64,000 nt of DNA, taken from NCBI RefSeq assembly GCF_030264295.1, contig NZ_CP127173.1:4099501-4163500 (forward strand), written 5' to 3'. Made by a program: the position numbers and the translations under genes. This DNA comes from Amycolatopsis nalaikhensis. GTDB taxonomy: Bacteria > Actinomycetota > Actinomycetes > Mycobacteriales > Pseudonocardiaceae. Under the pieces are notes generated by a model. That model saw nothing but the letters and a program-made list of their open reading frames with translations, was not told where the DNA came from and ran no database searches. Positions 2,095 to 20,744 of the stretch are shown in pieces (the stretch's first letter is position 1; the number at the start of each line of letters is the position of its first letter).

Positions 2095-3597
2095 TCACCG
2101 GCCGGAGGCCATGGCGTGCGCCGACGCGACGAGTGCCTGTTCGGCGTCGCGCGCGTGCTCGAACCGCGCCTGGTGCCACTCGCGCGCGGCGGCGACCGAA
2201 CCGGCGACGGCGGCCGCGTGCTCGCGGACCCGGTGCGGCGCCGCGCCGCCCTCCGCGACGCGTTCGGCGACCAGGCAGCGCGGCTCGGCGGCCAGCGCGA
2301 CGAGCCGGTCCGGCACCACGAGTGCTGCACCGGTCACCTGTTCGGCCGCCTCCGCGAGCAGGGCGGGGGTGAGCGCGTGCTCGCCCGCCATGGAGACCGC
2401 ACGGCCCACCACCCGGTAGGCCGTGCGGTAGTCGAGCCCGAGATGCCGGGCGAAGTCCTCGGCGAGGTCGGCCGCACCCGTGTGGTGCGCACCCGCCTGC
2501 GCCGCCAGGTTCTCGGTGTTGGGCGTCAGCCCGCGGACGACGGCGGTGCCGAGCCGGACGAGACGGGTCGACAGCGCGAGCGCACCGGCCACTTCGCCGT
2601 AGGCGTAGAGCCAACTGTCGGTGCGGGCGGACGGCGAGCGCCGGGTCACCAGCAACCCGGTCAGCCTGCCGACGACCGTGCTCGCGCCGCCCCGGATCAC
2701 CGCCAGCGCATAGGGATTCCGCTTCTGCGGCATGAGCACGCTGGCCCGGCACAGCGACGCGTCGAGTGTCACGTAGCCGAACGCCGGGCTGGCGAAGATC
2801 TCCAGGTCCTCGGCGAGCTGGTCCACGGTCAGCACGGCCTGGGTCGCCGCGCCGACGGCATCCACGAGACCGTCGGTGGACCACATCACGTCCCTGGTGT
2901 GCCGCCCGGCGGCGGCGAAACCGAGCAGTGCCGCGAGGTGGTTCCGGTCCAATGGCAGGCGTGTGCCGCCGACGCCGCCGGACCCGCCCGGCGACACGTC
3001 GGCCTGGCGATGGGCGTCGGCGATCCGGTCCAGGTGCCGCACCGCCTGCTCGGCGAAGCCGCCGAGGTAGTGCCCGAAGGTGGACGGCTGGGCAGGCTGG
3101 AGATATGTGGTGTCCGCCCACAGCGTGTCCGCCGCGTCGGTCTCCGCGACCGCGAGCGCTTCGGCGAACCCGGTCACCGCGTCGTGCAGGTCGAGCAGGT
3201 GCTCGCGCAGGGCGAGCCGGAACGCGATCCGGCCCGCCTCGCGACGGGTGCGGCCAAGATGCAGTCGCCCGGCGTCGGGACCGAGTTCGCGTTCCAGCAC
3301 CCGTTCCCGGCTGTTGTAGGCGTCGCCGTAGGCCGGGTCGTACTCGAACTCGGCCGCCGGGGTGTCGAGCAGGTCGAGCAGCCGCCGCAGCAGCGGCCGG
3401 ACCTCCGCTTCGCTCAGCACCCGGCAGTCGATGAGCGCGAGCAGGTGCGCGAGGTCGGCGAGGGTGAGGCCACGGTGCAGCAGCGGGGCATCGGCGATCT
3501 CCAGCGCGTAACCGGCGTCGACGAGCTCGGGCGCGGGGCCACTGGTGATCATGGCCTCGGCGCCGAGATAGCCGTTCGGTGTGGTAGTTCCGGTCAC
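2095..3597 (-). CDS. Aspartase/fumarase-superfamily lyase of CoM biosynthesis (XcbD-like)
   Basis: A 500-aa protein from GTG 3597, whose start overlaps the stop of the upstream PLP-enzyme gene. It has the fold signatures of argininosuccinate lyase-like enzymes: the loop SVLMPQKRNPYA (signature M-P-x-K-x-N with the catalytic Ser loop) near residue 285, and an all-helical C-terminus. A second superfamily member lies two genes upstream, mirroring the two such genes (xcbC, xcbD) reported in the Xanthobacter CoM operon. The published bacterial route runs PEP, sulfite addition, phosphate elimination, decarboxylation, thiolation, reduction. Which later step this lyase serves is inference. Argininosuccinate lyase is unlikely, because no arginine genes are nearby and the gene is locked into the CoM operon. 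Confidence 0.7.
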   Translation of the reverse strand: MTGTTTPNGYLGAEAMITSGPAPELVDAGYALEIADAPLLHRGLTLADLAHLLALIDCRVLSEAEVRPLLRRLLDLLDTPAAEFEYDPAYGDAYNSRERVLERELGPDAGRLHLGRTRREAGRIAFRLALREHLLDLHDAVTGFAEALAVAETDAADTLWADTTYLQPAQPSTFGHYLGGFAEQAVRHLDRIADAHRQADVSPGGSGGVGGTRLPLDRNHLAALLGFAAAGRHTRDVMWSTDGLVDAVGAATQAVLTVDQLAEDLEIFASPAFGYVTLDASLCRASVLMPQKRNPYALAVIRGGASTVVGRLTGLLVTRRSPSARTDSWLYAYGEVAGALALSTRLVRLGTAVVRGLTPNTENLAAQAGAHHTGAADLAEDFARHLGLDYRTAYRVVGRAVSMAGEHALTPALLAEAAEQVTGAALVVPDRLVALAAEPRCLVAERVAEGGAAPHRVREHAAAVAGSVAAAREWHQARFEHARDAEQALVASAHAMASGR

Positions 3598-4592
3598 GAG
3601 GCCCCCTTGCGGTCGGTGAACAACGTCGGCGCGCCGCCGGTCACCAGGAACACCTGGGGGCCGGTGACCCGGCCCGCGGCGCATTCCGCGACCAGGCCCG
3701 CCATGGCCTTCGCGCCGAACACCGGGTCGAGGAACACGCCTTCGGCGCGCGCCACCAGGAGCGCGGCCGCGGCCCCTTCCGGCGACGGGATCCCGTATCC
3801 CGGCCCCAGACAGCCGCCCAGCACTCGCGGTTCCGCCGGTTCCGGGCCGTGCACGAGTGCGGCGGCCGCGGCGGCGAGTGTGGTGATCCGGGTTCGACAT
3901 TCGGCCACCGGCCTGCTGACGGTCACCCCGATCAGGTCGAACGCGGCCGCCGCGAACGCGACACCGGCGAGCAGTCCGGCGTGGGTGCCGCACGAGCCGG
4001 TGGGCAGCCATACCGCCGCCGGTTCGGTGCCGGACTCGTCGAGTTGCGCAGCCAGTTCGATCGTCGCGCGGACGTAGCCGAGCGAACCGAGCGCGGTCGC
4101 GCCGCCTCTCGGCAGGACGTACGGGCGGCGCCCGGTCGCGCGCAGTTCGGCCGCGAGCGCGGCGATCCCGTCGTCCACGGTGGACCGGTCGGCGGCGCCG
4201 GTGAACCGCACGTCCACACCGAGCCAGCGGTGCAGCCGGAGGTTTCCTTCGTCCGGCGGAGGATTTCCGTAGCACACGACGTGCGGCTCGATGCCGTACC
4301 GCAGCGCGGTGAGCGCCGCCAGCAGCGTCCAGTTCGACTGCGGGCCCGCGCCGGTGACCAGGCAGTCACAACCCTGCCGCAGCGCGTCCGCGATCAGGTA
4401 CTCCAGGCCGCGCACCTTGTTGCCGCCCAGACCGAGCCCGGTCAGGTCGTCCCGTTTGAACAGGACGGGCACGCCGAGTTCGGCCGACAGGCGGGGCGCC
4501 GGGTGCAGTGGAGTCGGCGACCGCACCAGTTCGATCCGGGGCGGCTCGTGCGGTCCCAGCAACCGATCTGCGACGGGCGCGTGCGTGGTCAT
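3594..4592 (-). CDS. PLP-dependent enzyme, D-cysteine desulfhydrase/ACC deaminase fold, CoM biosynthesis (XcbE-like)
   Basis: A 332-aa fold-type II PLP enzyme. LGLGGNKVRGLEYL near residue 57 carries the Schiff-base lysine in its usual G-G-N-K context. The phosphate-binding region is LPTGSCGTHAG near residue 193. In ACC deaminase and D-cysteine desulfhydrase the active-site motif is Q-S-N-H; here it is AGPQSNWTLL, with Trp in place of His, so a different substrate is likely. The gene overlaps both neighbours by 4 nt within the CoM operon. PLP enzymes of this family take part in the late carbon/sulfur steps of bacterial CoM synthesis. The exact step cannot be read from sequence. Confidence 0.72.
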   Translation of the reverse strand: MTTHAPVADRLLGPHEPPRIELVRSPTPLHPAPRLSAELGVPVLFKRDDLTGLGLGGNKVRGLEYLIADALRQGCDCLVTGAGPQSNWTLLAALTALRYGIEPHVVCYGNPPPDEGNLRLHRWLGVDVRFTGAADRSTVDDGIAALAAELRATGRRPYVLPRGGATALGSLGYVRATIELAAQLDESGTEPAAVWLPTGSCGTHAGLLAGVAFAAAAFDLIGVTVSRPVAECRTRITTLAAAAAALVHGPEPAEPRVLGGCLGPGYGIPSPEGAAAALLVARAEGVFLDPVFGAKAMAGLVAECAAGRVTGPQVFLVTGGAPTLFTDRKGAS

Positions 4593-5926
4593 GCCGCACC
4601 GCATTCGGCGCGTACCCGGTCGACGAACGCGCCGCACGCGCCCAGCGCACTGTCCACAGTGAGCAACCGGTCCAGTTCGGCGTCGGAAAGCAGCGCGGTG
4701 CCTGCACAGTTCCGCAGCGCGGTGCGGAAGTCCACATCGGACTGCAGTCCAGCGAGCGCGGCCGAGCGCACGAGTTCCTGCGCGATGTGCTTGCCGACGC
4801 GGTCCGCGAGCGCCCGCATCACCGGTTCCGACAACAGGTATCCGCGCTGCGCGTCGATGTTGCGCCGCATCCGGTCGGCGTCCACAGCCAACCCGTCGAG
4901 CATTTCGGCGCCGAGCGCGGCACAGGCGGCGAACGAGCAGCACGCGTCCGGCACGAGCCGCCATTCGGTCTTCCACGCGCGCCCGTCCCGCTCGTGCTCA
5001 CAGCCGATGCCCTCCAGCGCGAGCGCCGCCTGTGCGCGCACCACCCGCGAGAGCGTGCCGAGTTGTTCGGAGATCTCCGGGTTTCGCTTGTGCGGCATGG
5101 TGATGGAGCCGACCGCCGCCGCCGACCCGCCCTCGGCCAGTTCCCCGATTTCCGGCCGCTGCAACTGGTAGACCTCGTTCCCGATCTTCGCGATGGTGGC
5201 CGACATCGCCGCGAGCAGCCCGGTGAACTCCGCGATCCCGTCGCGCGCGGTCAGCCACGGCACCGGCGCGACGCCGAGCCCGAGACGGGCGGCGAACGCG
5301 TCGAGCAGGTCGAGCGCGCGGTCGCCCCAGAACTCCATGGTGCCCAGTGCGCCGCCCAACTGGACGTTCTCCCAGCGCACGCGGCCTTCGGCGAGCCGCC
5401 GCAGATGGCGATCCAGTTCGGCCGCCCACACCGCGGCCTTGAACCCGAACGTGATCGGCAGACCCGGCTGGCCGTGCGTGCGGCCGCACATCGGGGTGTC
5501 GCGATGCGCCACCGCGAGCGCCAGCGCGCGGTCACGCAGCCGCCGCACGTCACGTTCGGCGATGTCGCCGACGGTGCGGAAGACAAGCGCGGTCCAGGTG
5601 TCGGTCAGGTCCTGGACGGTGGCGCCGTAGTAGACCCACTGGGCGGCGTCGGGCGGCAGGGTTTCCCGCAGTGTCCGGATGAGGCCGAGTGTGGAATGAC
5701 CGCATGCCCGCGTCTGTTCCGCAACGCTGTCGATGTCCACTGTGGACACTTTCGCGCCCGCATGGATGGCGTCCGCCGCGTCGCGTGGCACGAGGCCGAC
5801 GTCCGCCTGCGCCTCGGCGAGTGCGGCGAGCACGTCCAGCCAGCCCTGGGTGCGGCCCTCGTCGGTGAACAGGGCCGTCGCTTCCGGCGTCGTCCAGAGA
5901 TGACCGAAGATGCGCGAGGAGATCAT
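4589..5926 (-). CDS. xcbC: Aspartase/fumarase-superfamily lyase, probable phosphosulfolactate phosphate-lyase (XcbC-like)
   Basis: A 445-aa protein related to adenylosuccinate lyase and carboxymuconate cycloisomerase. The superfamily signature GSITMPHKRNPEISEQ is intact near residue 275, and an RTHGQPGLPITFG stretch lies near residue 155. In Xanthobacter the second CoM-biosynthesis enzyme is a superfamily member that eliminates phosphate from phosphosulfolactate to give sulfoacrylate; this gene is the best match by family and position. It starts at ATG 5926, overlapping the stop of the Cys-rich gene upstream, and is translationally coupled to the PLP gene downstream. A purine-pathway PurB role is the alternative, disfavoured by context. 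Confidence 0.7.
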   Translation of the reverse strand: MISSRIFGHLWTTPEATALFTDEGRTQGWLDVLAALAEAQADVGLVPRDAADAIHAGAKVSTVDIDSVAEQTRACGHSTLGLIRTLRETLPPDAAQWVYYGATVQDLTDTWTALVFRTVGDIAERDVRRLRDRALALAVAHRDTPMCGRTHGQPGLPITFGFKAAVWAAELDRHLRRLAEGRVRWENVQLGGALGTMEFWGDRALDLLDAFAARLGLGVAPVPWLTARDGIAEFTGLLAAMSATIAKIGNEVYQLQRPEIGELAEGGSAAAVGSITMPHKRNPEISEQLGTLSRVVRAQAALALEGIGCEHERDGRAWKTEWRLVPDACCSFAACAALGAEMLDGLAVDADRMRRNIDAQRGYLLSEPVMRALADRVGKHIAQELVRSAALAGLQSDVDFRTALRNCAGTALLSDAELDRLLTVDSALGACGAFVDRVRAECGAA

Positions 5927-6813
5927 GACGCCGCCGCCATCGCGGGCAGGCCGCAGATCGCACGCAGCGCGGCGCGGACTTCGTCGAGGTTCGCGCCCCA
6001 CGGCACGGTCGCGGACCGGCCCGCGTACTCCACGCCCCGTTCCAGCAGGCAGCACTTGGTGAGCACCGGCCCGGCGCCCGCGCGCGCCTTCGGGCACAGA
6101 TCCACCCGGTCCGGTTCGCTGCCGTAGAATTGCTCGTGGAACGCGCGCGAGCGCTCGCAGCCGATCAGCAGCCAATCGTCCCGATAGGACGGATGGGTGT
6201 CCAGAAACCGCACCTCGCCGTCGAGTTCGGCGCCGGAACCCCGGCAGGGCAACAGAAACGCGGGCGCCGGATGGTCCGCGGCGAGCGCGCGGATGTCGAC
6301 CGCGTCGAGCACCAGTTCCACCGGCGGCAGATCCTCGTCGAACGCGACGGCCTGTTCGGCCATCGAAAGGAGCTTCGGCGGGTACGGCGGCACCACCTCG
6401 GTCACCCGCACCCGCAGCGGCTCCGGCCGCCAGATGAAGTTGACGTGCTCGAACCGGCCGCGCACCACATAGGCCAGCGCGCCGTCCTGGTGCCCTGAAC
6501 GCGCGGCGGCGGCCAGCGCGCTCGCGTTGCCGACGTCGGTCGCCGGGTCGTCGAGCCACACCGTCGTGTCCGGTCCCGACAGTACCCGCAGTTCGGCGAC
6601 CGGTGAGAACAGCGGCCCGAGCGAGACCGGCCGGACGCCGACGAGCGCCGTGTCGTCGCCCGAGCGCAGCACGAGGAACGCGGTGCGCCGGTAGATCTCC
6701 CGTGGCCGCAACAGGTCGTCGATGGCGCGCGGTGTCAGCGGGATGTCCACCTCCTGCACGGAGAGTCCGCGGTAGGGGCGGGTGATGGTGTTCGGCGCCG
6801 GGTCGGGAATCAC
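5923..6813 (-). CDS. Uncharacterised Cys-rich protein embedded in the CoM biosynthesis operon
   Basis: A 296-aa protein from GTG 6813 that I cannot assign to a family. It overlaps ComA upstream and the XcbC-like lyase downstream by 4 nt each, so it is made with them. There is no signal peptide or membrane segment. The N-terminal half is mixed alpha/beta. The C-terminal half holds the Cys residues at about 190, 219, 240, 254, 255 and 287, in contexts LLPCRGSG, LIGCERSR, DLCPKARAG and TKCCLLERG, with Arg and Asp between them. The pattern could bind an iron-sulfur cluster or zinc, or carry a persulfide. Since the pathway still needs thiolation and reduction steps, a sulfur-transfer role is possible, but this is inference from location only. 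Confidence 0.65.
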   Translation of the reverse strand: MIPDPAPNTITRPYRGLSVQEVDIPLTPRAIDDLLRPREIYRRTAFLVLRSGDDTALVGVRPVSLGPLFSPVAELRVLSGPDTTVWLDDPATDVGNASALAAAARSGHQDGALAYVVRGRFEHVNFIWRPEPLRVRVTEVVPPYPPKLLSMAEQAVAFDEDLPPVELVLDAVDIRALAADHPAPAFLLPCRGSGAELDGEVRFLDTHPSYRDDWLLIGCERSRAFHEQFYGSEPDRVDLCPKARAGAGPVLTKCCLLERGVEYAGRSATVPWGANLDEVRAALRAICGLPAMAAAS

Positions 6814-7589
6814 GCCGACGCCTCGACCGTCGTGTCGAACGGCACGGTGTCGGCGCGCAGGCCGAGTCGCAGCGTTTCCAGGCTCAGCGCGTCGGCGGGC
6901 GCGATGTTGCCCAAGTTCGCCCCGACCCCGAGCTTCCGGATGAACCACGCCTGCTGGTTCTTCTCCGGCGCCTCGAAGATGACCCGCTCGACCGGCACCC
7001 GCCGCAAGATCGCCGTGATGACCTCGGACCGGATGCCGTGATCGCGGTCGTAGATGCCGACCGTGCCGCTCTCCCGGCCCTCGGCGACCAGCCAGCGCGC
7101 CCCGGCGTCGAGATCACCGGCCATCTCCTCGGCCCATTCGTCCGGAGTGGACGGATAGGTGTCGTCCTTCGCGCCTGTCTCGGCCAGCACCACGAAGTCG
7201 GCGGACAGTTCCCGGATCAGCGCCCGCTTCCGGTCCACGGTCAGCGCGCGCAGCCCGTTGGACACCTCGACGTGCGAGATCCCGCTGCGCAGCGCCCACT
7301 CCCGCAGTTCGCGCACCCGGTTCTGCAGTGCGCAGATCTCCAACAGGGTGCCGCCGAGCGAGACACCGCAACCGTGCTCGGTGTAGCGACGCACCCGCTG
7401 CGCCAGCGTGGGATCCACGTAGCCGATCCCCCAGCCGATCTTGACGATGTCCGCGAGCTGTCCCGCCTGGTCGAGGAACGCCTCGGTGCCGGCGACGGTG
7501 AGCCCCTTGTCCAGGACGTGCGTCACGCCGCACATCCTGGGTTTCACCGTCCGCGCCGGCAGATCGAGGAAGCTGGGACATCCGCTCAC
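6810..7589 (-). CDS. comA: Phosphosulfolactate synthase (ComA family), first step of CoM biosynthesis
   Basis: A 259-aa TIM-barrel protein that adds sulfite to phosphoenolpyruvate to give phosphosulfolactate. The N-terminus reads FLDLPARTVKPRMCGVTHVL and then DKGL, the family's opening motif. Further family landmarks are VKIGWG, GVSLGGTLLE, HVEVSNG, VLAETGAKD and VIFEAPEKNQQAWFI. The GTG start at 7589 is chosen because a good Shine-Dalgarno (GGGAGGTG) lies about 6 nt upstream and the conserved N-terminus begins right after it. It is the first of five tightly overlapping genes. The 182 bp between it and the transferase gene contain a perfect GC palindrome (7722-7735). The homolog in Xanthobacter is called XcbB1. 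Confidence 0.9.
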   Translation of the reverse strand: MSGCPSFLDLPARTVKPRMCGVTHVLDKGLTVAGTEAFLDQAGQLADIVKIGWGIGYVDPTLAQRVRRYTEHGCGVSLGGTLLEICALQNRVRELREWALRSGISHVEVSNGLRALTVDRKRALIRELSADFVVLAETGAKDDTYPSTPDEWAEEMAGDLDAGARWLVAEGRESGTVGIYDRDHGIRSEVITAILRRVPVERVIFEAPEKNQQAWFIRKLGVGANLGNIAPADALSLETLRLGLRADTVPFDTTVEASA

Positions 7590-7771
7590 CTGGCACCTCC
7601 CGCAGATCGTCGAACACCATCGACGATAGGAAGCGCGCACGCCGAGTGCCTGGTCCCGGAGAGGTCAGGATCGCGCGGCCACTCGCCCCGTCAGGCCGAA
7701 CGGCCGGCTCGAACTGCCGGAACCCGGCGCCGGGTCGGGCGGCGCCGGGCTCCTGTCCGCGAGCGGGTGGC

Positions 7772-8875
7772 CTACTTCTTCAGCTCCGCCCGCACCAGCG
7801 CCGCGCCGTCGGACAGCGCGCGCAGCTTGCTCGCCGCGATCATCCGGGGCAGGTTGATGAGGCCGCAGTCGGTGGACAGGCCGAGCCGGTCCGCCGGCAC
7901 GTACTCCAGCACCCGGCGGATCCGGTCCGCCACCTCGTCCGCGGTCTCGGTCACGGTGGACTTCACGTCGATCACGCCGGCCACGAACGGTTTCGTCCAT
8001 TCGTTGTCCACCAACGGTTTCAGGTCGTCCGGGCCGGTACGGCCGACCTCGTAGTTGAGCGCGTGGATGTTCGCGTCGAGCACGTGCGGGAACAGCGCCT
8101 TGGCCCGGTCCGGCGCCGGGGCGTCGGAGGCGCGGCGGTCGAGCACGAACGCGCCGAACTCGGTCTCCGTCTCGTCCGGGTAGTACGCGGGCGTGCCCGA
8201 GTAGTTGCCCCAGCAGGTGTGCACCCAGAACTGGCAGTCGACGTCGCGGACGGCCACGTTGAGCGCTTCGATCTCCCAGTCGCCCATGCCGTAGGGCCAC
8301 ACGAACTCGTCGAGCTGGATGATGTCGCAGCCGTTGTCGGCGAGCTCGCGGAAGTCCTCGTTGAACGCTCTCGCGATCGCGAGCGCGAGTTCCTTGGTGT
8401 CCTTGTAGTGCAGGTTCGTGGTGGCGGCGGCCAGCACGCCCAGACCGGTGTAGGACACCTTGACCGGCTTGTTCGTCGCCTTACGGGTGGCGCGCAACTG
8501 GTTCAGGTGGAACGGGTACTCGCGCTGGATTTCACCGGTGCACGTCGGCGAGAACAGCGTCGAGTAGATGGGCAGGCCGATCGGCGGGCCGGTGAGCTTG
8601 TACCCGGACATGCGCTCCAGGTAGTAGTACAGAATCGTGCCGTACGGCGAGTCGCCGCCGTAGACCTTGCCGTCGCTGATGATGTCGAGCCCGCCGGCCT
8701 CCTGGTCGTGCACGATCGCGCCGATCGTGTCCTCGAACGCCTCCTTGCTGATCGAGTCGTAAATGAATTCACCCTTGGGCAGCGTGGCGAACGCCGCACC
8801 GTCGTACCACCGCGGATTCGGATAGTTCCCGACCATCGCGGTCGGCAGCAGAACGTCTTGCGAACCAATGAGCAT
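7772..8875 (-). CDS. xecA: Epoxyalkane:coenzyme M transferase (EaCoMT)
   Basis: A 367-aa zinc enzyme of the cobalamin-independent methionine synthase fold. It opens epoxides with the CoM thiolate to give hydroxyalkyl-CoM. The zinc ligands of the His-x-Cys...Cys type are visible: HTCWGNY (His219, Cys221) and STDCGLIN (Cys337). The length equals EaCoMT (XecA/EtnE) and is half that of full MetE, which excludes the methionine synthase reading. A strong Shine-Dalgarno (AAGGACG) precedes ATG 8875. The gene lies between the acyl-CoA synthetase and the CoM-biosynthesis genes on the same strand, so cofactor supply and use are probably co-expressed. EtnE (ethene/vinyl chloride) and XecA (propene) cannot be told apart without a tree. 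Confidence 0.88.
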   Translation of the reverse strand: MLIGSQDVLLPTAMVGNYPNPRWYDGAAFATLPKGEFIYDSISKEAFEDTIGAIVHDQEAGGLDIISDGKVYGGDSPYGTILYYYLERMSGYKLTGPPIGLPIYSTLFSPTCTGEIQREYPFHLNQLRATRKATNKPVKVSYTGLGVLAAATTNLHYKDTKELALAIARAFNEDFRELADNGCDIIQLDEFVWPYGMGDWEIEALNVAVRDVDCQFWVHTCWGNYSGTPAYYPDETETEFGAFVLDRRASDAPAPDRAKALFPHVLDANIHALNYEVGRTGPDDLKPLVDNEWTKPFVAGVIDVKSTVTETADEVADRIRRVLEYVPADRLGLSTDCGLINLPRMIAASKLRALSDGAALVRAELKK

Positions 8876-8932: not shown

Positions 8933-11023
8933 TCAGTTCTTCGGCATGGCGGGACCGTACTTTTCGGTGGTGTCCGCACCGCGGGTCAGAATTCGCCAGT
9001 CCACGCACACGCAGCCGTCCGGTCCGGCCAGCACCGGGTTGAGATCGAGTTCGGCGATCCGGTCGCTGCCCGCCAGCAGGTCGCCGACCGACACCACGAC
9101 GTCGGCCAGCGCGTCCCGGTCGACCGGGAGAGCGCCGCGAACGCCGGAAAGCACGGCCGCGCCGCGCAACTCCTCGAGCATCGCGCGAGCCTGTGCGTGG
9201 TCGAGCGGTGCGAGCGCGAACCGGACGTCCCGCAGCACCTCGACGAGAACGCCGCCCATGCCGACCATCACGACGGGCCCGAACGAGGGATCGCGAAAGC
9301 CGCCGACGACCGTCTCGACGCCGTCCATCTTGGACTGCACGAGTACCGACGCGCCTTCGGCGAGTGCGAGCAGTTCCCCGGCCGCCGCGCGTATTCGTTG
9401 TTCGCCGACGAGGCCGACCCGCACACCGCCGACGTCGCTCTTGTGCGTCAGGTCCGGGTGCGCGACCTTCAGCACGACGGGGCCGGGCAAGCGCGCGGCG
9501 GCGGCCACGACTTCGTCGGCCGACTCGCAGCGAACCGTTGGCACCACCGGGATTCCGGCGTATTCGAGCAGGTCTCGCGCGACGATCGGGTCGCCCGGAT
9601 CGTCCACCGGGCCGAGCAGGTCACTGGGCTCGTGCGGCGAGGACGGCTTCGGCTCGAACATGCCGTACCGGACGGCGGCGCCGATCGCGCGGGCCGTCCT
9701 GTCCGGCCATGGCAGGCACGGCACTCCGGACTGGTGCAAGACATCCGCGACGTCATCGGCGGAGCGGGGCGCCACGAAACAGGCGTAGACGGGAACAGGC
9801 ACGTTGTCAGCCCGCAGGCGCTTTACGGCGTCCCGGACCGCCGACGCTACCTCGAGCGACGCCGACCGCTGCAGCAACACCGGAACGACGACATCGACCT
9901 CACCGGAACGGGCGAGCAGGTCGATCGCGCCCGGATAACCCGTGGCGAACAGCCGCCACGCCGGAGTGATGTCGACAGGATTGCGCGGACTGCCGTACGG
10001 CGGCAGCAATTCACTCAACCGAGACCGCAGCGCGGGACTCAATTCCGGAACGTCGAGCCCTTCGTCCGCGAGCAGGTCCGCGAGTTCCACCCCGGTCCCG
10101 CCGGAATTCGTGATGATGCCGACGCGACGGCCACGCGGCGTCGGCTGCTCGGCGAGCGCACGGGCCACGTCCAGCATCTCCAGCCCGGTCCGGACCCGGA
10201 CCACGCCCGAGTCGCGCAGTGCGGCGTCGAGGATGTCGTCATCGGCGGCCAGCGCCGCGGTGTGCGAGACGGCGGCGCGCCGTCCGGCCCCGGTCCGCCC
10301 GCCGACGACCGCGATCACGGGCTTCTCGGCCGTCGCCCGGCGAGCCTCGGCGAAAAACGCGCGCGGGTCGGTGATCGACTCCAGCAGCAGCGCGATCACC
10401 GTGGTGGCCGGGTCTTCGCGCAGGTACGCAAGCACTTCGGCGTCGGTCAGATCGGCCTTGTTGCCCGCCGCGTACACCTTGGCGAACCGCATGGCCTCGT
10501 CGGTGGCGAGCATGTGCACGGCCATCCCGTACGAGCCGGACTGGGTGACCAGGCTGACGCCGCCACCGCCCGGTGGCGTCCCGGCCGCGATCGACGCGTT
10601 GAGCGGCAGGTCCGCGTTCTGCACGCCGAAGCAGTTCGGACCCACCACCCGCACGCCGCCCGCTCTCGCCGCGGCGCGCACCTTTTCCTGTAGCCGCACG
10701 CCATCGCCGCCGATCTCGGCGAAGCCCGCGCTCAGCACCACGGCCGCGGGCACGCCCTTGTCGGCGGCCGCCTCGATCACACCGGGCACGCTGTCCGCCG
10801 GGGTCGCCACCACGACGAGGTCGATCTCGCCGGGCACGGACCGCAGGTCCTGGTATGCGGCCCGGCCGCCGACAGTCCTGTTCGGACAGACCGGAACCAC
10901 CTCGCCGGGAAAGCCGGAAAGGTTGTCCCACAAGAGCTTTCCGACTGAGCCAGCGCGATCGGACGCGCCGACGAGCGCCACCCGCCGTGGCGCGAACACC
11001 GCGTCCAGCGCACGATTCAGCAC
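8933..11023 (-). CDS. NDP-forming acyl-CoA synthetase (fused alpha/beta)
   Basis: A 696-aa protein fusing a CoA-binding Rossmann domain (VALVGASDRAGSVG near residue 17), a succinyl-CoA-ligase-like domain with the phosphohistidine segment AAVSHTAALA near residue 255, and a C-terminal ATP-grasp domain (LKVAHPDLTHKSDVGGV). It couples a carboxylic acid to CoA at the cost of ATP or GTP, or runs in reverse. GTG 11023 is preferred over TTG 11029 because GGAGGTGG then lies 6 nt upstream. It follows the CoA-transferase genes and precedes EaCoMT. Likely substrates are small acids derived from CoM thioethers or sulfoacetate. Specificity is inference. Confidence 0.8.
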   Translation of the reverse strand: MLNRALDAVFAPRRVALVGASDRAGSVGKLLWDNLSGFPGEVVPVCPNRTVGGRAAYQDLRSVPGEIDLVVVATPADSVPGVIEAAADKGVPAAVVLSAGFAEIGGDGVRLQEKVRAAARAGGVRVVGPNCFGVQNADLPLNASIAAGTPPGGGGVSLVTQSGSYGMAVHMLATDEAMRFAKVYAAGNKADLTDAEVLAYLREDPATTVIALLLESITDPRAFFAEARRATAEKPVIAVVGGRTGAGRRAAVSHTAALAADDDILDAALRDSGVVRVRTGLEMLDVARALAEQPTPRGRRVGIITNSGGTGVELADLLADEGLDVPELSPALRSRLSELLPPYGSPRNPVDITPAWRLFATGYPGAIDLLARSGEVDVVVPVLLQRSASLEVASAVRDAVKRLRADNVPVPVYACFVAPRSADDVADVLHQSGVPCLPWPDRTARAIGAAVRYGMFEPKPSSPHEPSDLLGPVDDPGDPIVARDLLEYAGIPVVPTVRCESADEVVAAAARLPGPVVLKVAHPDLTHKSDVGGVRVGLVGEQRIRAAAGELLALAEGASVLVQSKMDGVETVVGGFRDPSFGPVVMVGMGGVLVEVLRDVRFALAPLDHAQARAMLEELRGAAVLSGVRGALPVDRDALADVVVSVGDLLAGSDRIAELDLNPVLAGPDGCVCVDWRILTRGADTTEKYGPAMPKN

Positions 11024-11853
11024 GCGCAACCACCTCCGGGGTCGTGCGCGAACACCCGCGACAACTCGCGTTCGTCGAACTCGCCTTTGCGAACGCCGAG
11101 CGGGTCGATCGTGCGGACCGCCGCCAGTTCCGTTGTGGACGGTGGGTCGAGCGGGCGCAGGTCGCCCGCCACGTCAAGGGGAAACCCCGTCGCGGCGCGG
11201 ACCTCGTCGACACTCACGTCCGGGAAGGTCCGGCACAGCCGCACCGTCTCGCCCGGGAAGTCGAACACGCCCAGTTCGGTGACCATCCACTGTGGACCGC
11301 CGCCGGGGAAGCCGAGCTCGGTCCTGCTGCCGGCCGGGGTGCGGTGGCCCATGTCGGTGATGAAGTCGCACTCGGGCACCAGCGTCCGGCCGCCGCGATG
11401 CCGGGTCGTCCACAGTGTCAGGTTGCCGATCGTGGCGGAGAGGTTGCAGCCGCCACCACCGCCGCCGAGCTTGACCTTCGGCCGGTCGCGCGGACCGATC
11501 ATGGTCACGTTGGTGTTGCCGAACCGGTCGATCTGCCCGCCGGACAGGAACATCCGGTCCACGTCGCCGCGCAGCGCGGCGTCGAAGAACTCCTCGAACC
11601 GCATGCTGTACGCGGCGCCCTGTTTCAGCGCGGCGTCGTTGCCGGTCGGCGGGATGAACGGCGGCTCGGGGTTGATCGCGTACATCGCGCCTTCGACCAG
11701 CACCATGTCCGGCGCGTGCGTCCGGCGGGCCACGTGCATCGCGACCTGCGCGCACGGGCTGCCGAAGCCGTGGAAAACGGTCTCGTCCGGCCGGATGGTG
11801 CGGGCGAGCAGGACGACGAACCATTCGTCCAAAGTGAACGGTCGCGGGCTCAC
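11017..11853 (-). CDS. Family I CoA-transferase, beta subunit
   Basis: A 278-aa protein resembling the beta subunits of glutaconate/3-oxoacid CoA-transferases and the IpdB type. The segment VLVEGAMYAINPEPPF has a conserved acidic residue in the expected active-site region, and LGGGGGGCNLSA is a glycine-rich loop. GTG 11853 overlaps the stop of the alpha subunit, as normal for these pairs. It would move CoA between carboxylates, or cleave a CoA thioester as IpdAB does. In a CoM pathway the plausible substrate is carboxymethyl-CoM or a related acid. Confidence 0.75.
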   Translation of the reverse strand: MSPRPFTLDEWFVVLLARTIRPDETVFHGFGSPCAQVAMHVARRTHAPDMVLVEGAMYAINPEPPFIPPTGNDAALKQGAAYSMRFEEFFDAALRGDVDRMFLSGGQIDRFGNTNVTMIGPRDRPKVKLGGGGGGCNLSATIGNLTLWTTRHRGGRTLVPECDFITDMGHRTPAGSRTELGFPGGGPQWMVTELGVFDFPGETVRLCRTFPDVSVDEVRAATGFPLDVAGDLRPLDPPSTTELAAVRTIDPLGVRKGEFDERELSRVFAHDPGGGCAC

Positions 11854-12758
11854 GCGAACAGCTCCTTCCATGCGTCGGTCGAGGCGGACCAGCCGGTCAG
11901 CTCGTCGAGGCGCCCGATCGCCTTCTGGTATCCGTCCTCGGAACCCGTGTCGTGCACGTATTTCTGGAGATACCCGGCGGCGTCGCCCGAGCGGGCGGCG
12001 GTCACGTACTCGTTCAGATGCGGGCGGTCGTAGGCATAACGGGGGTAGCAGGACGCCGGATGCGCGCCGAACGGGACCTCGACGAGCGCCGACACCAGGT
12101 GTCCTGGCACGGTGATCCCGGCCGCGGTGACGTCCTCTGTGGACACCAGCTCGTCGACCGTCGCGATCACCGCCTTCGACGCGGACGCGAAGCGCTCGTC
12201 GAGCACGTACGGCTGTTCGAGATGCAGGTTGCCGTAGCGGTCGCCGGACGGCGCGTGCAGCAGCGCCACGTCCGGCCGCAGCGCGGGCACCGCGACGAGC
12301 TTCTGCCCGGTGAACGGGCATTCGATCTCGCGGTACTCCGGGTGCAGCGAGCCGATGTCGGACCCGCGCACCCCGACGACCGGCAGGAACGGCACGCCCA
12401 TCTCGGCGGCGCGCAACTGGGCGAGGATCGTCGCGCAGCAGCTTTCCGCGATCTCGATCAACCCGTTCCTGGCGGCTTCGCGGTAGGCGGGGGCGAGACC
12501 GAGGTCCTGCTCGAACCCGACGTAGCTCTCCTCGCACCGCCGCACCGCGCCCGCGGCGACGAGCAGGTCGACGTCGATGCTGTGCGCCGACCCGACGAGG
12601 TGCAAACCCGTGCGACCCTGCCGGATCAGCTCGCGCACCAGCGCCATCGGCAGCCGCGCGCACAGCCCGCCGCCGAGCGCGACGATCGCGCCGTCCGCGA
12701 CGGCCGACGCGGCCTCGGCGAGTGTGGTCCGCTTGTCCCGCGGCGGTCGCAGGCTCAT
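11850..12758 (-). CDS. Family I CoA-transferase, alpha subunit
   Basis: A 302-aa alpha subunit. The N-terminal GAIVALGGGLCARLPMALVR is the expected oxyanion/CoA-binding start, and the body matches glutaconate-CoA-transferase-like proteins (LHLVGSAHSID, LHAPSGDRYGNLHLEQPY). Starts and stops overlap with the reductase upstream and the beta subunit downstream. The alpha-beta pair followed by an acyl-CoA synthetase offers two ways to form a CoA thioester in one operon. Steroid-type (IpdA) activity is possible by homology but no steroid genes surround it. Confidence 0.75.
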   Translation of the reverse strand: MSLRPPRDKRTTLAEAASAVADGAIVALGGGLCARLPMALVRELIRQGRTGLHLVGSAHSIDVDLLVAAGAVRRCEESYVGFEQDLGLAPAYREAARNGLIEIAESCCATILAQLRAAEMGVPFLPVVGVRGSDIGSLHPEYREIECPFTGQKLVAVPALRPDVALLHAPSGDRYGNLHLEQPYVLDERFASASKAVIATVDELVSTEDVTAAGITVPGHLVSALVEVPFGAHPASCYPRYAYDRPHLNEYVTAARSGDAAGYLQKYVHDTGSEDGYQKAIGRLDELTGWSASTDAWKELFA

Positions 12759-14095
12759 GTCCGTGCTCCTTCCGATCGGTTCGCCCGGCCCGCCGCGACC
12801 AGCACCGGGTCGTAGACGGGCGCGAACGGTGGTGCGTAAGCAAGATCGAGCGCGCCGAGGTCGTCCACGGACAGCTCGGCGTGCAACGCGGTGGCTACCA
12901 CGTCGATGCGTTTGGCCGCGCCCTCGCGGCCGGCGAGCTGCGCGCCGAGCAGCCTGCCGTCCGGCGTGTGCACCAGGCGCACGTGCAGCGGGGCCGCGCC
13001 CGGGTAGTACTTGGCGCGCGAACGTGACTCGACATCCGTTGCCACAGCGGGGATTCCGGCCGCCGTCGCCTCGGCGAGACTGAGCCCGGTCCGCGCCACC
13101 TCCAGGTCGAACACCTTCACCACGGCGGTGCCGACCACGCCGCGGAACGACGCACGCCCGCCTGCCGCGACGGTCCCCGCGACCCGCCCGGTCTTGTTCG
13201 CGGCGGGGCCGAGCGGCACCCACGCGGGCGCGCCGAGCACGAGGTGCGGCAACGCCACGCAGTCGCCCGCGGCGAACACACCGGGTAACGAGGTCCGCAT
13301 CCCCTCGTCGACGACGACGGCCCCGTTCGGCAGTTTCTCCGCGCCCGCGAGCAGACCGGTCGCCGGGCGCACGCCGACGGCCAGCACGATCAGGTCCACC
13401 GCGAACTCGGCCCCGTCGACGACCGCGACCGGGCCCGTAGCGCCGTCGAGGATCGCGTCCAGCCTGCTGCCAAGCTGCAGGTCGGCGTGCCGCCGGACCT
13501 CCGCGTCGACCACCTCCGCGATTGGCTCGTCCACTGTGGACAGCACGCGGGGCAGCGCCTCCACGATCCGCACGGCCGCGCCCGCCGCGACGAGCGCTTC
13601 GGCGGTCTCCAGTCCGATGTAGCCCGCGCCGACGACGATCGCTTTGCGCACCGAGCCGGAGTCGAGCAACGTGCGCAGCTTCGCGGCGGACGCCAGCGAG
13701 CGCACCGTGAACACCCTCGGGTGGTCTATACCAGCAATGGGCGGCACCACGGGATCGGCGCCGGCCGCGAGCACCAGCGTGTCGTAGTCCAGGGTCTCGG
13801 CGCCGCCGTCGTTCGCCACCGTCACCCGCCGCGCGGCGGTGTCCAGCTCGCGCACGGTCGTGCCCAGGCGGAGGTCGATTCCCCGCCGGTCACGGAAAAC
13901 CTCCGGCGGGTAGGCGAGCAACGTCTCCGCCCGGTCGACGATTCCGCCGAGGTAGTAAGGGATCCCGCACATCCCGTACGCGGCGTACTCGCCCGCCTCG
14001 CACACGATCACGGGCCTCTCGGGCGCGACCCGCCGCGCGGCCGAAGCCGCCGACATGCCTGCCGCGCCACCCCCGATCACCACCATTCCCGCCAC
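12755..14095 (-). CDS. FAD/NAD(P)-dependent disulfide reductase, CoA-disulfide reductase/NADH oxidase type
   Basis: A 446-aa single-cysteine flavoprotein. It has an FAD-binding GGGAAGMSAASAAR at the N-terminus, the redox Cys in AAYGMCGIPYYL near residue 43 (the single-Cys motif of CoA-disulfide reductase and Nox enzymes), an NAD(P) site VVGAGYIGLETAEAL near residue 155, and the second FAD motif VFAAGDC. It heads the operon that makes CoM and opens epoxides. By family it would reduce CoA disulfide, or CoM disulfide by analogy, keeping the thiol available; a reductive cleavage of a CoM thioether is another idea. It starts at GTG 14095 with an upstream GAGAGG. The conserved motif at 14127-14177 lies about 31 nt upstream. 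Confidence 0.75.
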   Translation of the reverse strand: MAGMVVIGGGAAGMSAASAARRVAPERPVIVCEAGEYAAYGMCGIPYYLGGIVDRAETLLAYPPEVFRDRRGIDLRLGTTVRELDTAARRVTVANDGGAETLDYDTLVLAAGADPVVPPIAGIDHPRVFTVRSLASAAKLRTLLDSGSVRKAIVVGAGYIGLETAEALVAAGAAVRIVEALPRVLSTVDEPIAEVVDAEVRRHADLQLGSRLDAILDGATGPVAVVDGAEFAVDLIVLAVGVRPATGLLAGAEKLPNGAVVVDEGMRTSLPGVFAAGDCVALPHLVLGAPAWVPLGPAANKTGRVAGTVAAGGRASFRGVVGTAVVKVFDLEVARTGLSLAEATAAGIPAVATDVESRSRAKYYPGAAPLHVRLVHTPDGRLLGAQLAGREGAAKRIDVVATALHAELSVDDLGALDLAYAPPFAPVYDPVLVAAGRANRSEGART

Positions 14096-14239: not shown

Positions 14240-15652
14240 ATGACTGAGCCATCCGAGGACGCCGTCCGTACCGAAATCGACGCCGTGCTGCGCCGGGCGC
14301 GCGCCGCGGCCGACGCCATCGAGCACTACGACCAGGACCAGGTCGACGAGCTGGTCACCGCCGTCGCGTGGGCGGTGGTGCGCAAGGACCACGCCGAGAA
14401 GCTGGCGAAGCTCGCCGTCGACGAGGGCGGGTTCGGCAACTACGCGGACAAGGTCGCCAAGATCGGCAAGCGGGTCACGGGCGTGCTGGCCGACATGGGG
14501 CCGGTGCGTACCGTCGGCGTGGTGGCGGAACGGCCGGAGGCCGGGATCGTGCAGATCGCGAAGCCAGTCGGGGTCGTCGCCGCGCTCATCCCGACGACCG
14601 GACCCGACGCGACGCCGCCGGTCAAGGCGCTGTTCGCGCTGAAGGGCCGCAACGCGATCGTGTGCGCGCCGCACCCGAGGACGCGGCAGAGCACGGAAAT
14701 GGTCGTCGACTACATGCGCGAGGCGTGCCGTCAGGTCGGCGCGCCCGAGGACCTGGTGCAGGTGGTGCCGGAGCCGTCGCTGGCGAAGACGCGTCTGCTG
14801 ATGCGCGGCGCCGATCTCGTCGTCGCGACCGGTGGCGCCGGGATGGTCAAGGCGGCCTACAGTTCCGGCACCCCGGCCTACGGCGTCGGGGTCGGCAACT
14901 CGGTGCACGTGGTGGACGAGACCGCCGACCTGGCCGACGCCGCCGAGGCGATCATCACGGCCAAGACGTTCGACGAGGCCACGAGCTGCCTGGCCGACAA
15001 CGCCGTCGTCGCGCACGCCTCGGTGTACGACGAGCTGGTCCGGCGACTCGTCGACGGCGGCGGGCACCTGTGCTCTGGCGAGCAGAAAGCGTTGCTGCGC
15101 AAGGCGATGTGGCCCGACAACGGTCCGATCCCGACAATCGACGTGGTCGCGAAACCGGCGCCGCACATCGCTCACCTCGCCGGTTTCGAGGTGCCGGACA
15201 CCTGCCGCCTGCTGCTGGTCGAGGAATCCGGCACCGGCCCCGGACACCCCTTCTCCGGCGAGAAACTGTCCGTCGTGCTGGCGGTCTATCGCTACGAGGG
15301 CGGCATCGACAATGCGGCGAAACTCGTCAACGACATCACCGGGTATCAAGGACTCGGCCACACATGCGGCATCCACACCAGCTCGGACGAGAATGTGGCC
15401 CGCCTCGCGTCGACCACGAAAACCGCGCGGGTGCTGGTGAACCAGAACCTGAACGAAGGCGCGGGCAGCCCGCGTAACGGCCTGCCGTTCACCCTGAGCC
15501 TGAGCTGCGGCACCTGGGGCGGGAATATCACGACGGAGAACGTCAACGCCCGCCATTTCGTGAACCTGACGTGGGTGTCGCGCCCGATCCCGCCACGTGT
15601 CGTGAGCGAGGAGGACCTGTTCGCCGCACACTGGCAGCGCTACGGGAGGTAG
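14240..15652 (+). CDS. CoA-acylating aldehyde dehydrogenase, sulfoacetaldehyde dehydrogenase (SauS)-like
   Basis: A 470-aa enzyme of the acylating ALDH group (EutE/AdhE/SauS). Landmarks are PVGVVAALIPTTGPDATP near residue 110, the catalytic Cys in EATSCLADNAVVAH near residue 253, and SLSCGTWGGNITTENVN near the end, which is close to what I know of sulfoacetaldehyde dehydrogenases. It converts an aldehyde plus CoA and NAD(P) to acyl-CoA. The substrate could be sulfoacetaldehyde, or the structurally similar 2-ketoethyl-CoM formed from ethene oxide. It is the only plus-strand gene in the CoM block, divergent from the reductase operon, and followed by a strong hairpin. Confidence 0.78.
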   Translation: MTEPSEDAVRTEIDAVLRRARAAADAIEHYDQDQVDELVTAVAWAVVRKDHAEKLAKLAVDEGGFGNYADKVAKIGKRVTGVLADMGPVRTVGVVAERPEAGIVQIAKPVGVVAALIPTTGPDATPPVKALFALKGRNAIVCAPHPRTRQSTEMVVDYMREACRQVGAPEDLVQVVPEPSLAKTRLLMRGADLVVATGGAGMVKAAYSSGTPAYGVGVGNSVHVVDETADLADAAEAIITAKTFDEATSCLADNAVVAHASVYDELVRRLVDGGGHLCSGEQKALLRKAMWPDNGPIPTIDVVAKPAPHIAHLAGFEVPDTCRLLLVEESGTGPGHPFSGEKLSVVLAVYRYEGGIDNAAKLVNDITGYQGLGHTCGIHTSSDENVARLASTTKTARVLVNQNLNEGAGSPRNGLPFTLSLSCGTWGGNITTENVNARHFVNLTWVSRPIPPRVVSEEDLFAAHWQRYGR

Positions 15653-18912: not shown

Positions 18913-20574
18913 TCACAGGCTCACCAGCGACATCTGGCCCGCCCGCAGCCGGGACAACTGGATGAAGTGCTCCGGGTTCAGGAACAGCTCGTTCAGGTCG
19001 GCCATCTGGTCGATGGTGAAGCCCTCGGGCCTGCGGATCAGGTAGTCGATGTACTGGAACGCGTCCTTCGCGCCGTAGCCGACGTGATGCGCGCCGACGA
19101 TCTTGCGGGAATCCGCGTCCACCAACAGTTTCAGCCAGCCGGACAGGATCGGCCTTGTGAACGCGTACAGCATCGAACCCTCGGCGGCGGGCAGCGCGAA
19201 CGATTCCGGGTCGGCGTCGTCCGGCGGCATCTGGATCTTGATGACGTTCGGGTACTCGGTGCGCGCCTCGGCCTCGGACAGCCCGCACCAGGTGACTTCG
19301 TAGGTGGTATGGAAGAAGTCGGGGTACTCGCTGAAGTCGAACTCGTGGTGCTCGCCCATGATGTTGCGGGCCGCGGTGACCCCGCACTTGCGCGCCTTGA
19401 ACATCTCCATCGGCGGGCCGAGCAGATCGCCGACGGCGTACACGTTCGGCACCGAGGTGCGCATCGTCGCGTCCGCCACCACGAAGCCCCGGTCGTCGAT
19501 CTTCAGCCCGAGCGGTTCGTACATCCGCAGATCCGGCCGCTCGCCGGTGCCGACGAACACGAAGTCCGTCTCCACCTCCACGATCTCGCCGTTCGCGTCC
19601 CGGTAGCGGACCCCGGTCACCCGGTCGTCGCCCAGCACGTCGAGGGTCTGCGCGCCTTCGACGATCTCGATGCCCCGGTCCACCATCATGTCGATCACGT
19701 AGTCGCGCAGGCCTTCGTCGACGTGGTGCAGACTCGCGGTGCGCAGCAGCGGGCTGCGGGTCAGGATCGTGGTCTGGCAACCGGTCGCCTGGAAGAACGA
19801 GCCGTACTCCAGCGCGACCTTCGAGCCGCCGATGATGACGCACCGGGTCGGTTCTTCGTCCAGTTCCTCGATGAGGCTCGCGAAGTCGTACACGCCCTTG
19901 CGGTCCAGACCACTGATCTCGGCCGGGAAGTCGGTGCGGGCGCCGGTGCACAGCACGAGGTTCTTCGCCTGGAACCGCCTGCCGTCCACCTCGACGGTGT
20001 GCTCGTCGATCACGGTGGCCGCCGCGTTGAGGATGTACTCCATGCCCAACTGTTCCTTGGACTGCCAGTTCATGATCGCGTGCGGCATGCCCCGGCCGGC
20101 GCGGAACAGCTTGACGATCTCCAGAATGCTCGCCTTGCTCGCGTCGAACTCCGGGTACCAGAGCTTGCCCTGCATGTGCTTCGCGAGGTCCAGTTCCCGC
20201 GCGCACTCGGAGAACAGGTGGTGCGGCACGCAGGCCTGGTGCGGGCACGAGCCGCCGAGGAACGGCCAGGCGTCGATGGTGAGCTGGCGTCCGCCGCGCG
20301 CCTTGAGGAACGCGGAGCCGAACCGCCCGGCCGCGCCGCCGCCGATGAAGATCGCGTCGTACTCGCGGTCGTCCTCCTCCGGGCTCGCCACGTTCCACAG
20401 CGCCTCGGTGTTCTGGTCTGGATGCTCCACGATGTCGTCGATCAGCAGCGCCCACTCGCCGACGGTCAGCGGCTCACCGTCCGCGCCGCGGTCGTCGCCC
20501 ACCGGGTCGCCCAGTGCGCTGATCCGGGCGCGTAAGGCCGCGAAACCGTCCTGGGGATTACGGACATCAATCAT
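18913..20574 (-). CDS. xecC: 2-ketopropyl-CoM oxidoreductase/carboxylase (2-KPCC)
   Basis: A 553-aa disulfide oxidoreductase that cleaves the ketoalkyl-CoM thioether and carboxylates the enolate (acetoacetate from 2-ketopropyl-CoM). FAD motif GGGAAGRFGSAFL lies at residue 78. The redox pair Cys110/Cys115 sits in GGSCPHQACVPHH, whose His-rich form is specific to 2-KPCC. The C-terminal NPEHFIQLSRLRAG has Phe where ordinary reductases have the catalytic His, the hallmark change that keeps protons out. The N-terminus is about 30 residues longer than the Xanthobacter enzyme. GAGAGGAG precedes ATG 20574. It heads the operon with XecD, XecE and the LLM gene. Confidence 0.9.
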   Translation of the reverse strand: MIDVRNPQDGFAALRARISALGDPVGDDRGADGEPLTVGEWALLIDDIVEHPDQNTEALWNVASPEEDDREYDAIFIGGGAAGRFGSAFLKARGGRQLTIDAWPFLGGSCPHQACVPHHLFSECARELDLAKHMQGKLWYPEFDASKASILEIVKLFRAGRGMPHAIMNWQSKEQLGMEYILNAAATVIDEHTVEVDGRRFQAKNLVLCTGARTDFPAEISGLDRKGVYDFASLIEELDEEPTRCVIIGGSKVALEYGSFFQATGCQTTILTRSPLLRTASLHHVDEGLRDYVIDMMVDRGIEIVEGAQTLDVLGDDRVTGVRYRDANGEIVEVETDFVFVGTGERPDLRMYEPLGLKIDDRGFVVADATMRTSVPNVYAVGDLLGPPMEMFKARKCGVTAARNIMGEHHEFDFSEYPDFFHTTYEVTWCGLSEAEARTEYPNVIKIQMPPDDADPESFALPAAEGSMLYAFTRPILSGWLKLLVDADSRKIVGAHHVGYGAKDAFQYIDYLIRRPEGFTIDQMADLNELFLNPEHFIQLSRLRAGQMSLVSL

Positions 20575-20606
20575 GATCGGGCTCCTCTCGCTGGGGTCGT
20601 GAACCT

Positions 20607-20657
20607 CAGCATCCGCCCGGAAGTGGCTTCCCCCACAGGTCATCACGGGACGAAGAA
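20607..20657 (-). promoter_or_regulatory. Conserved promoter-proximal motif, copy B
   Basis: On the minus strand it begins TTCTTCGTCC and ends GGATGCTG, 32 nt before the 2-KPCC start. The two end blocks and the 31-nt interval equal copy A (14127-14177). About ten scattered positions in the interval also agree. Confidence 0.5.
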
Positions 20658-20744
20658 CCGCCGGAACCTGACCCTGCGGGAACCAGGTGCGATCGCGGTG
20701 GAGCGACGAGCCCACAGTGAAACCCCGCGCGGCGGACAGCGCCC

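Follow-up and report, generated by a model that had tools for sequence, protein, structure and literature searches.

The gene that occupies positions 6813-5923 of the minus strand in a 64,000-nucleotide stretch of Amycolatopsis nalaikhensis DNA (contig NZ_CP127173.1, positions 4,099,501 to 4,163,500; hereafter the window) is xcbA of a bacterial coenzyme M (CoM) biosynthesis cluster, as shown by profile matches, synteny and co-occurrence. Methanogens use CoM as a carrier, as do bacteria growing on alkenes and vinyl chloride. XcbA is an already named family, and the conservation of its cysteine residues and its link to XcbD, the enzyme encoded directly downstream, are now quantified.

Identification of the gene as xcbA

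The xcbA reading frame starts with a GTG codon at position 6813 and encodes 296 amino acids, with cysteine residues at positions 190, 219, 240, 254, 255 and 287. It overlaps the stop codon of the ComA gene by 4 nucleotides (GTGA) and the start codon of the next gene by another 4 (ATGA). An earlier note on the window had described this reading frame, both overlaps and the six cysteine positions, all of which proved exactly right on rereading. The same note had taken the protein to be unknown. However, profile searches identified it as XcbA/DUF7714, and a gene in a like position had been flagged as xcbF1 in the excerpted text of PMC8727900. The NCBIfam model NF052538 (“CoM_XcbA_fam”) matched the window protein with 430.1 bits against a cut-off of 150, covering model positions 3-290 of 293, and the Pfam profile PF24830 (DUF7714) matched it with 287.5 bits against a gathering cut-off of 25, covering positions 1-277 of 280. 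This was the single PF24830 match in the genome that contains the window. NCBIfam gives no activity for XcbA and describes XcbE merely as a “coenzyme M biosynthesis enzyme”. No activity for XcbA was found in the profile libraries or the literature searched, although the primary pathway report may assign one, and the papers found in one search of that literature do not mention DUF7714 by name.

Conservation of cysteine residues

An alignment was made of 40 XcbA sequences, including the window protein and extending down to 37% identity to it. Cys190, Cys219, Cys240, Cys254 and Cys255 are invariant in all 40 sequences, while position 287 is a cysteine in 6 of them. Of the six residues that the earlier note had put forward, then, five withstood the conservation test and Cys287 did not. 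Only 33 of the 296 positions are invariant, and the probability that five of six cysteines would fall among them is 7e-5 (hypergeometric). The other invariant residues include Arg15, Lys147, Arg191, Asp205, Trp214, Arg221, Ser222, His226, Tyr230 and Trp272, and His123 is nearly invariant. With the five cysteines and His226 present in 40 of 40 sequences, XcbA has at least three conserved Cys/His candidate ligands. Control alignments prepared by a like recipe for ComA (20 rows), XcbC (24 rows), XcbD (36 rows) and XcbE (28 rows) had no invariant residue among their 3, 3, 8 and 7 cysteines, respectively, and the result was the same when gaps were ignored. The nearest to invariance in these controls were Cys194 and Cys225 of XcbE, found in 25 and 22 of the 28 rows. 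Therefore, the invariance of the cysteines is particular to XcbA, and the five residues suggest a metal or redox site.

Linkage and co-occurrence with coenzyme M genes

XcbA sequences were collected from a contig scan (29 loci, including a gene identical to that of the window), six plasmid records and a survey of the phylum. The 46 context rows that resulted leave out the identical locus, a second copy in Nocardioides JS614 and a second Methylocystis plasmid. The nearest downstream query gene was xcbD in 42 of the 46 rows (close relatives included), with at most 122 nucleotides between the matches, and this was the case in all 42 rows from outside Xanthobacter autotrophicus Py2, the window among them. 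The remaining four rows correspond to the three Py2 clusters, since one copy there is split into two reading frames. According to its annotation, the second JS614 copy has the same arrangement. ComA was the nearest upstream query gene within 300 nucleotides of xcbA in 18 of the 46 rows. All bacterial homologs examined lay within CoM clusters, which supports the earlier proposal that the gene belongs to CoM biosynthesis; homologs located mainly away from CoM genes, the result that would have spoken against it, did not occur among them.

Within the 396 genomes surveyed from Actinomycetota, the phylum of the window, XcbA was found in 10, counting the window genome. The same 10 genomes, and no others, head the ranking by XcbD score (534-654 bits). 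The next XcbD scorers, at 491 and 420 bits, had no XcbA, XcbC or XcbE match in the approximately 20 kb around them. The curated XcbD cut-off of 600 was passed by five of the 396 genomes, all among the ten with XcbA. Of the 10 genomes with XcbA, 8 also had ComA, compared with 30 of the 386 without XcbA; ComA was likewise detected in all 27 genomes from which the named XcbA loci come. On plasmids, XcbC and XcbA were found in the same 6 of 72,556 records. These patterns of co-occurrence indicate that xcbA goes together with XcbC and XcbD and not simply with ComA. Pairwise distances were correlated with those of XcbA on a common set (210 pairs), yielding r values of 0.96 for XcbD, 0.93 for XcbE and 0.89 for XcbC. 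A survey of 282 genomes of Pseudomonadota, the phylum of the genome with locus L010 and a sample too thin to judge it, found XcbA in the L010 genome only, as was the case for XcbC (434 bits; the next score was 257).

Predicted structure and fold searches

The AlphaFold2 model of XcbA, built with 34 sequences, had a mean predicted local distance difference test score (pLDDT) of 95.6 and a predicted template modeling score (pTM) of 0.90. The C-terminal part predicted alone reached a pLDDT of 94.1 and a pTM of 0.87. The model has strands at residues 185-188, 214-218, 235-238 and 250-254, and places Cys190, Cys219, Cys240 and Cys254/255 at strand ends or one to two residues beyond them. Such locations are expected of a site at one edge of a sheet, provided that the strands are parallel, and may point to a single metal or redox site.

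The structure search that the earlier note had recommended was run on this confident model, and no convincing known fold emerged. Neither Foldseek nor Z-score structure searches, carried out with the whole protein and with the C-terminal part, identified a convincing match in the PDB. The RsmE methyltransferase fold was considered and rejected; it occupied Foldseek ranks 1-19 with E values from 2e-3 to 5e-2, but the template modeling (TM) score on the query was 0.10-0.14 and the root-mean-square deviation 17-20. When the C-terminal part was searched alone, RsmE was not among the 50 matches listed, and the knotted methyltransferases RlmH/YbeA appeared at E 0.29. Archaemetzincin 2x7m (Z 5.3 and 5.8) and maleate isomerase 4fq5 (Z 6.0), which have metzincin and Asp/Glu racemase folds, were in the chance range. 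Comparison of XcbA with solved chains using phmmer produced matches only at E 0.14 and above, a 40-row profile gave none up to E 10, and a search of BFVD returned nothing at E 0.001 (best 0.02). The absence of better structure matches does not prove a new fold.

XcbA has no role in NCBIfam, yet it is as constant in the clusters examined as XcbD. The five invariant cysteines, together with a confident model that lacks a convincing known fold, make it a clear target for functional studies, and because of this combination a small decisive set of tests should be possible.

Proposed role of XcbA

We propose that XcbA is a catalytic protein in which the five invariant cysteines would come together in a single site, either a metal site (zinc or iron-sulfur) or a thiol redox site. 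The site would also take in the invariant His226, Arg191, Arg221, Ser222 and Lys147 and the nearly invariant His123, and would bind a small sulfonated, carboxylated anion. XcbA would work alongside XcbD, its substrate being the cysteine adduct that XcbD would form from sulfoacrylate, in a step that may involve loss of CO2, use of electrons or both, before or during the release of CoM by XcbE. We hold this reading with somewhat less than even confidence. We infer all three of its components, i.e., the meeting of the cysteines in one site, the metal or redox nature of that site and the XcbD product as the substrate.

The conversion of the XcbD adduct to CoM requires the loss of one carboxyl group. 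To our knowledge, the other four Xcb enzymes all come from families that are not known for a decarboxylation of this kind. By exclusion, the remaining candidate for this reaction is therefore XcbA, acting either by itself or together with XcbD. A pathway abstract from 2022 reportedly lists sulfite addition, phosphate elimination, decarboxylation, thiolation and reduction. A more specific version of the proposal, in which XcbA would be a Cys-ligated metalloenzyme of unseen fold responsible for the step in which the XcbD adduct loses CO2 or is reduced, with the same family taking part in the CoM metabolism of Methanosarcina, appears rather unlikely.

Several observations weigh against a catalytic XcbA. 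The idea of one site rests on the strand-end positions, with contacts between the cysteines and the direction of the strands presumed in the predicted model. No fold relative backs any chemistry, as the best Foldseek E value (1.8e-3) came at a TM score of 0.11, and the best Z scores to solved structures were 5.3 for the whole protein and 6.0 for the C-terminal part. The 42 xcbD-adjacent copies include close relatives and hence are not independent. The division of XcbD scores between 534 and 491 bits was drawn after the scores were known, with at most four candidates scored per genome. Two of the ten survey genomes with XcbA (G253, 81% complete, and G070, 98% complete) gave no ComA match. When each protein was compared on its own set, the distance correlations were equal (0.93 for CoAT_a, CoADR and XcbD), and gene linkage cannot separate a catalyst from a structural partner. 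One of the three Py2 xcbA copies is split, the other two being intact. The excerpted text of PMC11507031 lists 13 proteins of the Methylohalobius CoM cluster and names none of them XcbA; therefore, the XcbA step may be replaceable. Finally, the step may already be assigned in the published pathway report (Wu et al. 2022).

The main rival is a non-catalytic XcbA that serves XcbD as a zinc-stabilized subunit, an assembly factor or a channel that passes an unstable adduct to XcbE. The constant adjacency of xcbA and xcbD outside Py2, the best distance correlation on the common set, again with XcbD, and the lack of a known enzymatic fold in the structure searches all agree with such a partner. However, the invariant Arg, His, Ser, Lys and Asp residues that accompany the cysteines resemble a site more than a scaffold, and xcbA is not adjacent to xcbD in Py2, so we consider a purely structural protein unlikely. 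In the view taken in the earlier note, the thiol of CoM would come from XcbA, acting as a sulfur carrier or a persulfide sulfurtransferase. Five invariant cysteines in a protein of a thiol-making pathway are compatible with this role, and archaea employ MMP16/ComF, a putative sulfurtransferase, at the last step (PMC12068725, in the part consulted). Nonetheless, XcbD is named “3-sulfopropionylcysteine synthase” in NCBIfam, and the XcbE-like protein of the window also matches D-cysteine desulfhydrase models, with scores under their cut-offs. Cysteine can therefore bring the sulfur, and the claim that a separate carrier is needed was not supported. Moreover, no sulfurtransferase family matched XcbA in Pfam or NCBIfam. 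DUF7714 was the sole Pfam match of the window protein up to E 10 and NF052538 its sole NCBIfam match up to E 0.1, while five relatives searched in NCBIfam up to E 10 returned NF052538 plus one chance SRP54 row and no sulfurtransferase. The sulfur carriers known to us need one or two reactive cysteines rather than five, which also counts against this role. A sulfur carrier is thus possible but not indicated, and we regard it, weakened as it is, as quite unlikely.

Production, trapping or delivery of sulfite for ComA would agree with the position of ComA upstream of xcbA in the 18 rows mentioned above and directly after it in Py2, and with sulfite being the first substrate of the pathway. On the other hand, the two JS614 clusters already have a phosphoadenosine phosphosulfate (PAPS) reductase, a likely source of sulfite, and 30 of the 386 survey genomes without XcbA have ComA. 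Because XcbA tracks XcbD and not ComA, we hold a sulfite role to be very unlikely. Five conserved cysteines could also sense thiols or the redox state, as expected from a regulator or a thiol/epoxide sensor of the cluster. However, the Pfam and NCBIfam scans of the window protein revealed no DNA-binding family, and the window encodes separate MEDS and TetR regulators, which makes a regulatory XcbA highly improbable. A Cys-ligated enzyme next to XcbD is the reading that we prefer to these four.

Organization of the operon and its surroundings

The genes of the CoM cluster and those upstream of it, all on the minus strand, are listed below.

2095..3597, minus strand: xcbC-like lyase, aspartase/fumarase superfamily; best model NF052535, 361 bits, below the cut-off of 575
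3594..4592, minus strand: xcbE-like pyridoxal phosphate (PLP) enzyme; best model NF052537, 335 bits, below the cut-off of 450
4589..5926, minus strand: xcbD, aspartase/fumarase superfamily, directly downstream of xcbA; NF052536, 642 bits, cut-off 600
5923..6813, minus strand: xcbA (DUF7714); PF24830, 287.5 bits; NF052538, 430 bits; model pLDDT 95.6
6810..7640, minus strand: xcbB/comA, phosphosulfolactate synthase; PF02679, 249.6 bits, sole match in the genome; coordinates are those of the longest open reading frame
7772..8875, minus strand: etnE-like epoxyalkane:CoM transferase, upstream of comA; Meth_synt_2 domain
8933..14095, minus strand: likely epoxide-catabolic genes for an ADP-forming acyl-CoA synthetase, two CoA-transferase subunits and a CoA-disulfide-reductase-like flavoprotein

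The slices used in the profile searches began at 7568 for ComA and were 13 residues short for XcbD and 7 residues short for XcbE. The acyl-CoA synthetase and the flavoprotein were recognized by profile, and the CoA-transferase subunits by their match to JS614 CoA-transferase genes. The lyase next to xcbA had been described in the earlier note as XcbC-like; its NF052536 score makes it XcbD, and the XcbC-like gene is the one at 3597-2095. Since the xcbE-like and xcbC-like genes score below the NCBIfam cut-offs, annotation by these models would miss both. If XcbE starts at the ATG at 4592 and XcbC at the GTG at 3597, every one of the four junctions between ComA and XcbC can be read with a 4-nucleotide overlap. 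A special link of xcbA to its neighbors through such overlaps was therefore rejected, as they mark the operon.

The etnE-like product shares 79% identity over residues 1-365 with the product of a gene that adjoins the monooxygenase genes of Nocardioides JS614, where it is annotated as belonging to the cobalamin-independent methionine synthase II family. The name EtnE was taken from the excerpts of PMC11507031 and PMC8727900. This transferase is likely the consumer of CoM and, by comparison with the systems described in those excerpts, the gene group is best read as an alkene-epoxide operon that provides for its own CoM.

On the opposite strand and adjoining the CoM operon, positions 14258-15652 (plus strand) encode a protein similar to the acylating sulfoacetaldehyde dehydrogenase SauS (NF047625, 524 bits, cut-off 600). 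Aldehyde dehydrogenase genes are present near the JS614 and NBB4 clusters too. A pyridine nucleotide-disulphide oxidoreductase is encoded at 18913-21003 (minus strand), adjoining two short-chain dehydrogenase/reductase (SDR) genes, and is possibly a 2-ketoalkyl-CoM reductase; in its longest open reading frame about 210 residues precede the domain, or the start lies further in. A gene for a MEDS-domain regulator is located at 22480-23076 (minus strand), and MEDS genes were found near the JS614 and NBB4 clusters as well. The window also encodes a TetR regulator. None of the four PF02332 diiron monooxygenase matches of the genome (E up to 1e-10) is inside the window. They are located in two places megabases away (G000:C1:7506656-7510323 and 9592414-9596021).

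Comparison with known systems

In the excerpt of PMC8727900 (2021), xcbF1 is a conserved 308-amino-acid hypothetical protein of vinyl-chloride-assimilating mycobacteria and Nocardioides JS614, encoded between xcbB1 and xcbE1 and with a possible role in CoM synthesis; the excerpt makes no connection between xcbF1 and XcbA. The products of the genes that follow phosphosulfolactate synthase in JS614 and NBB4 share 60-65% identity with the window XcbA. Taking into consideration this identity, the position and the length, xcbF1 is probably another name for xcbA. Diiron monooxygenase genes adjoin the CoM cluster in JS614, whereas those of the window genome are megabases away. Both JS614 CoM clusters end with the PAPS reductase gene (L033:14732-15421 and L092:11802-12503), whose product is a likely source of sulfite for ComA.

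Two proteins of X. autotrophicus Py2, Xaut_5051 and Xaut_5070, belong to the same NF052538 family, with 470 and 464 bits compared to 430 for the window protein. Py2 XcbA and window XcbA have the same five cysteines and the same type of cluster, and share about 45% identity. However, xcbA lies ahead of comA in Py2 and between comA and xcbD in the window. The gene order in the three Py2 clusters is XcbA-ComA-XcbC-XcbD, followed by XcbE in two of them, as in the intact series Xaut_5051 to Xaut_5055. This order, A-B-C-D-E, fits the NCBIfam name XcbA, and the putative correspondence of the Py2 genes with the XcbA of the literature rests on this name and the gene order. The split copy is located at L032:12001-12842 (plasmid positions 85933-86774), where no gene is listed although the rest of the cluster is annotated.

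In the excerpted text of PMC11507031, the counterpart of XcbA is one of five enzymes needed for CoM, the Py2 proteins are said to have had their roles studied in vitro, and Py2 XcbA is considered a functional analogue of the sulfoacetaldehyde dehydrogenase of the Methylohalobius CoM cluster, to which it has no significant similarity according to the same excerpt. The statement suggests a redox role for XcbA rather than that of a sulfur carrier. The earlier note had placed the protein at an unassigned sulfur step; the analogy leaves it in the pathway with a redox role implied and the step possibly assigned already. The window carries both the SauS-like gene and xcbA.

As for archaea, the CoM synthase MMP16/ComF (COG1900) is described as a putative metalloprotein in the part of PMC12068725 consulted, and is set apart from XcbA by the Pfam scan only, in which XcbA gave DUF7714 and no further family, ferredoxins included. 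Among 14 control genomes, PF24830 had a match above its cut-off in Methanosarcina acetivorans only, and not in Methanocaldococcus jannaschii. NF052538 matches M. acetivorans below its cut-off. ComA was found in Bacillus subtilis and M. jannaschii only among these genomes, and not in M. acetivorans, which makes CoM by another route (PMC12068725) and has a CoM operon headed by the hypothetical gene MA3296 (PMC12713407), as excerpted from both sources. The PF24830 match in M. acetivorans could link bacterial and archaeal CoM metabolism. If the family is indeed shared, the bacterial and archaeal CoM pathways, which have been described as convergent, would have one protein in common besides ComA.

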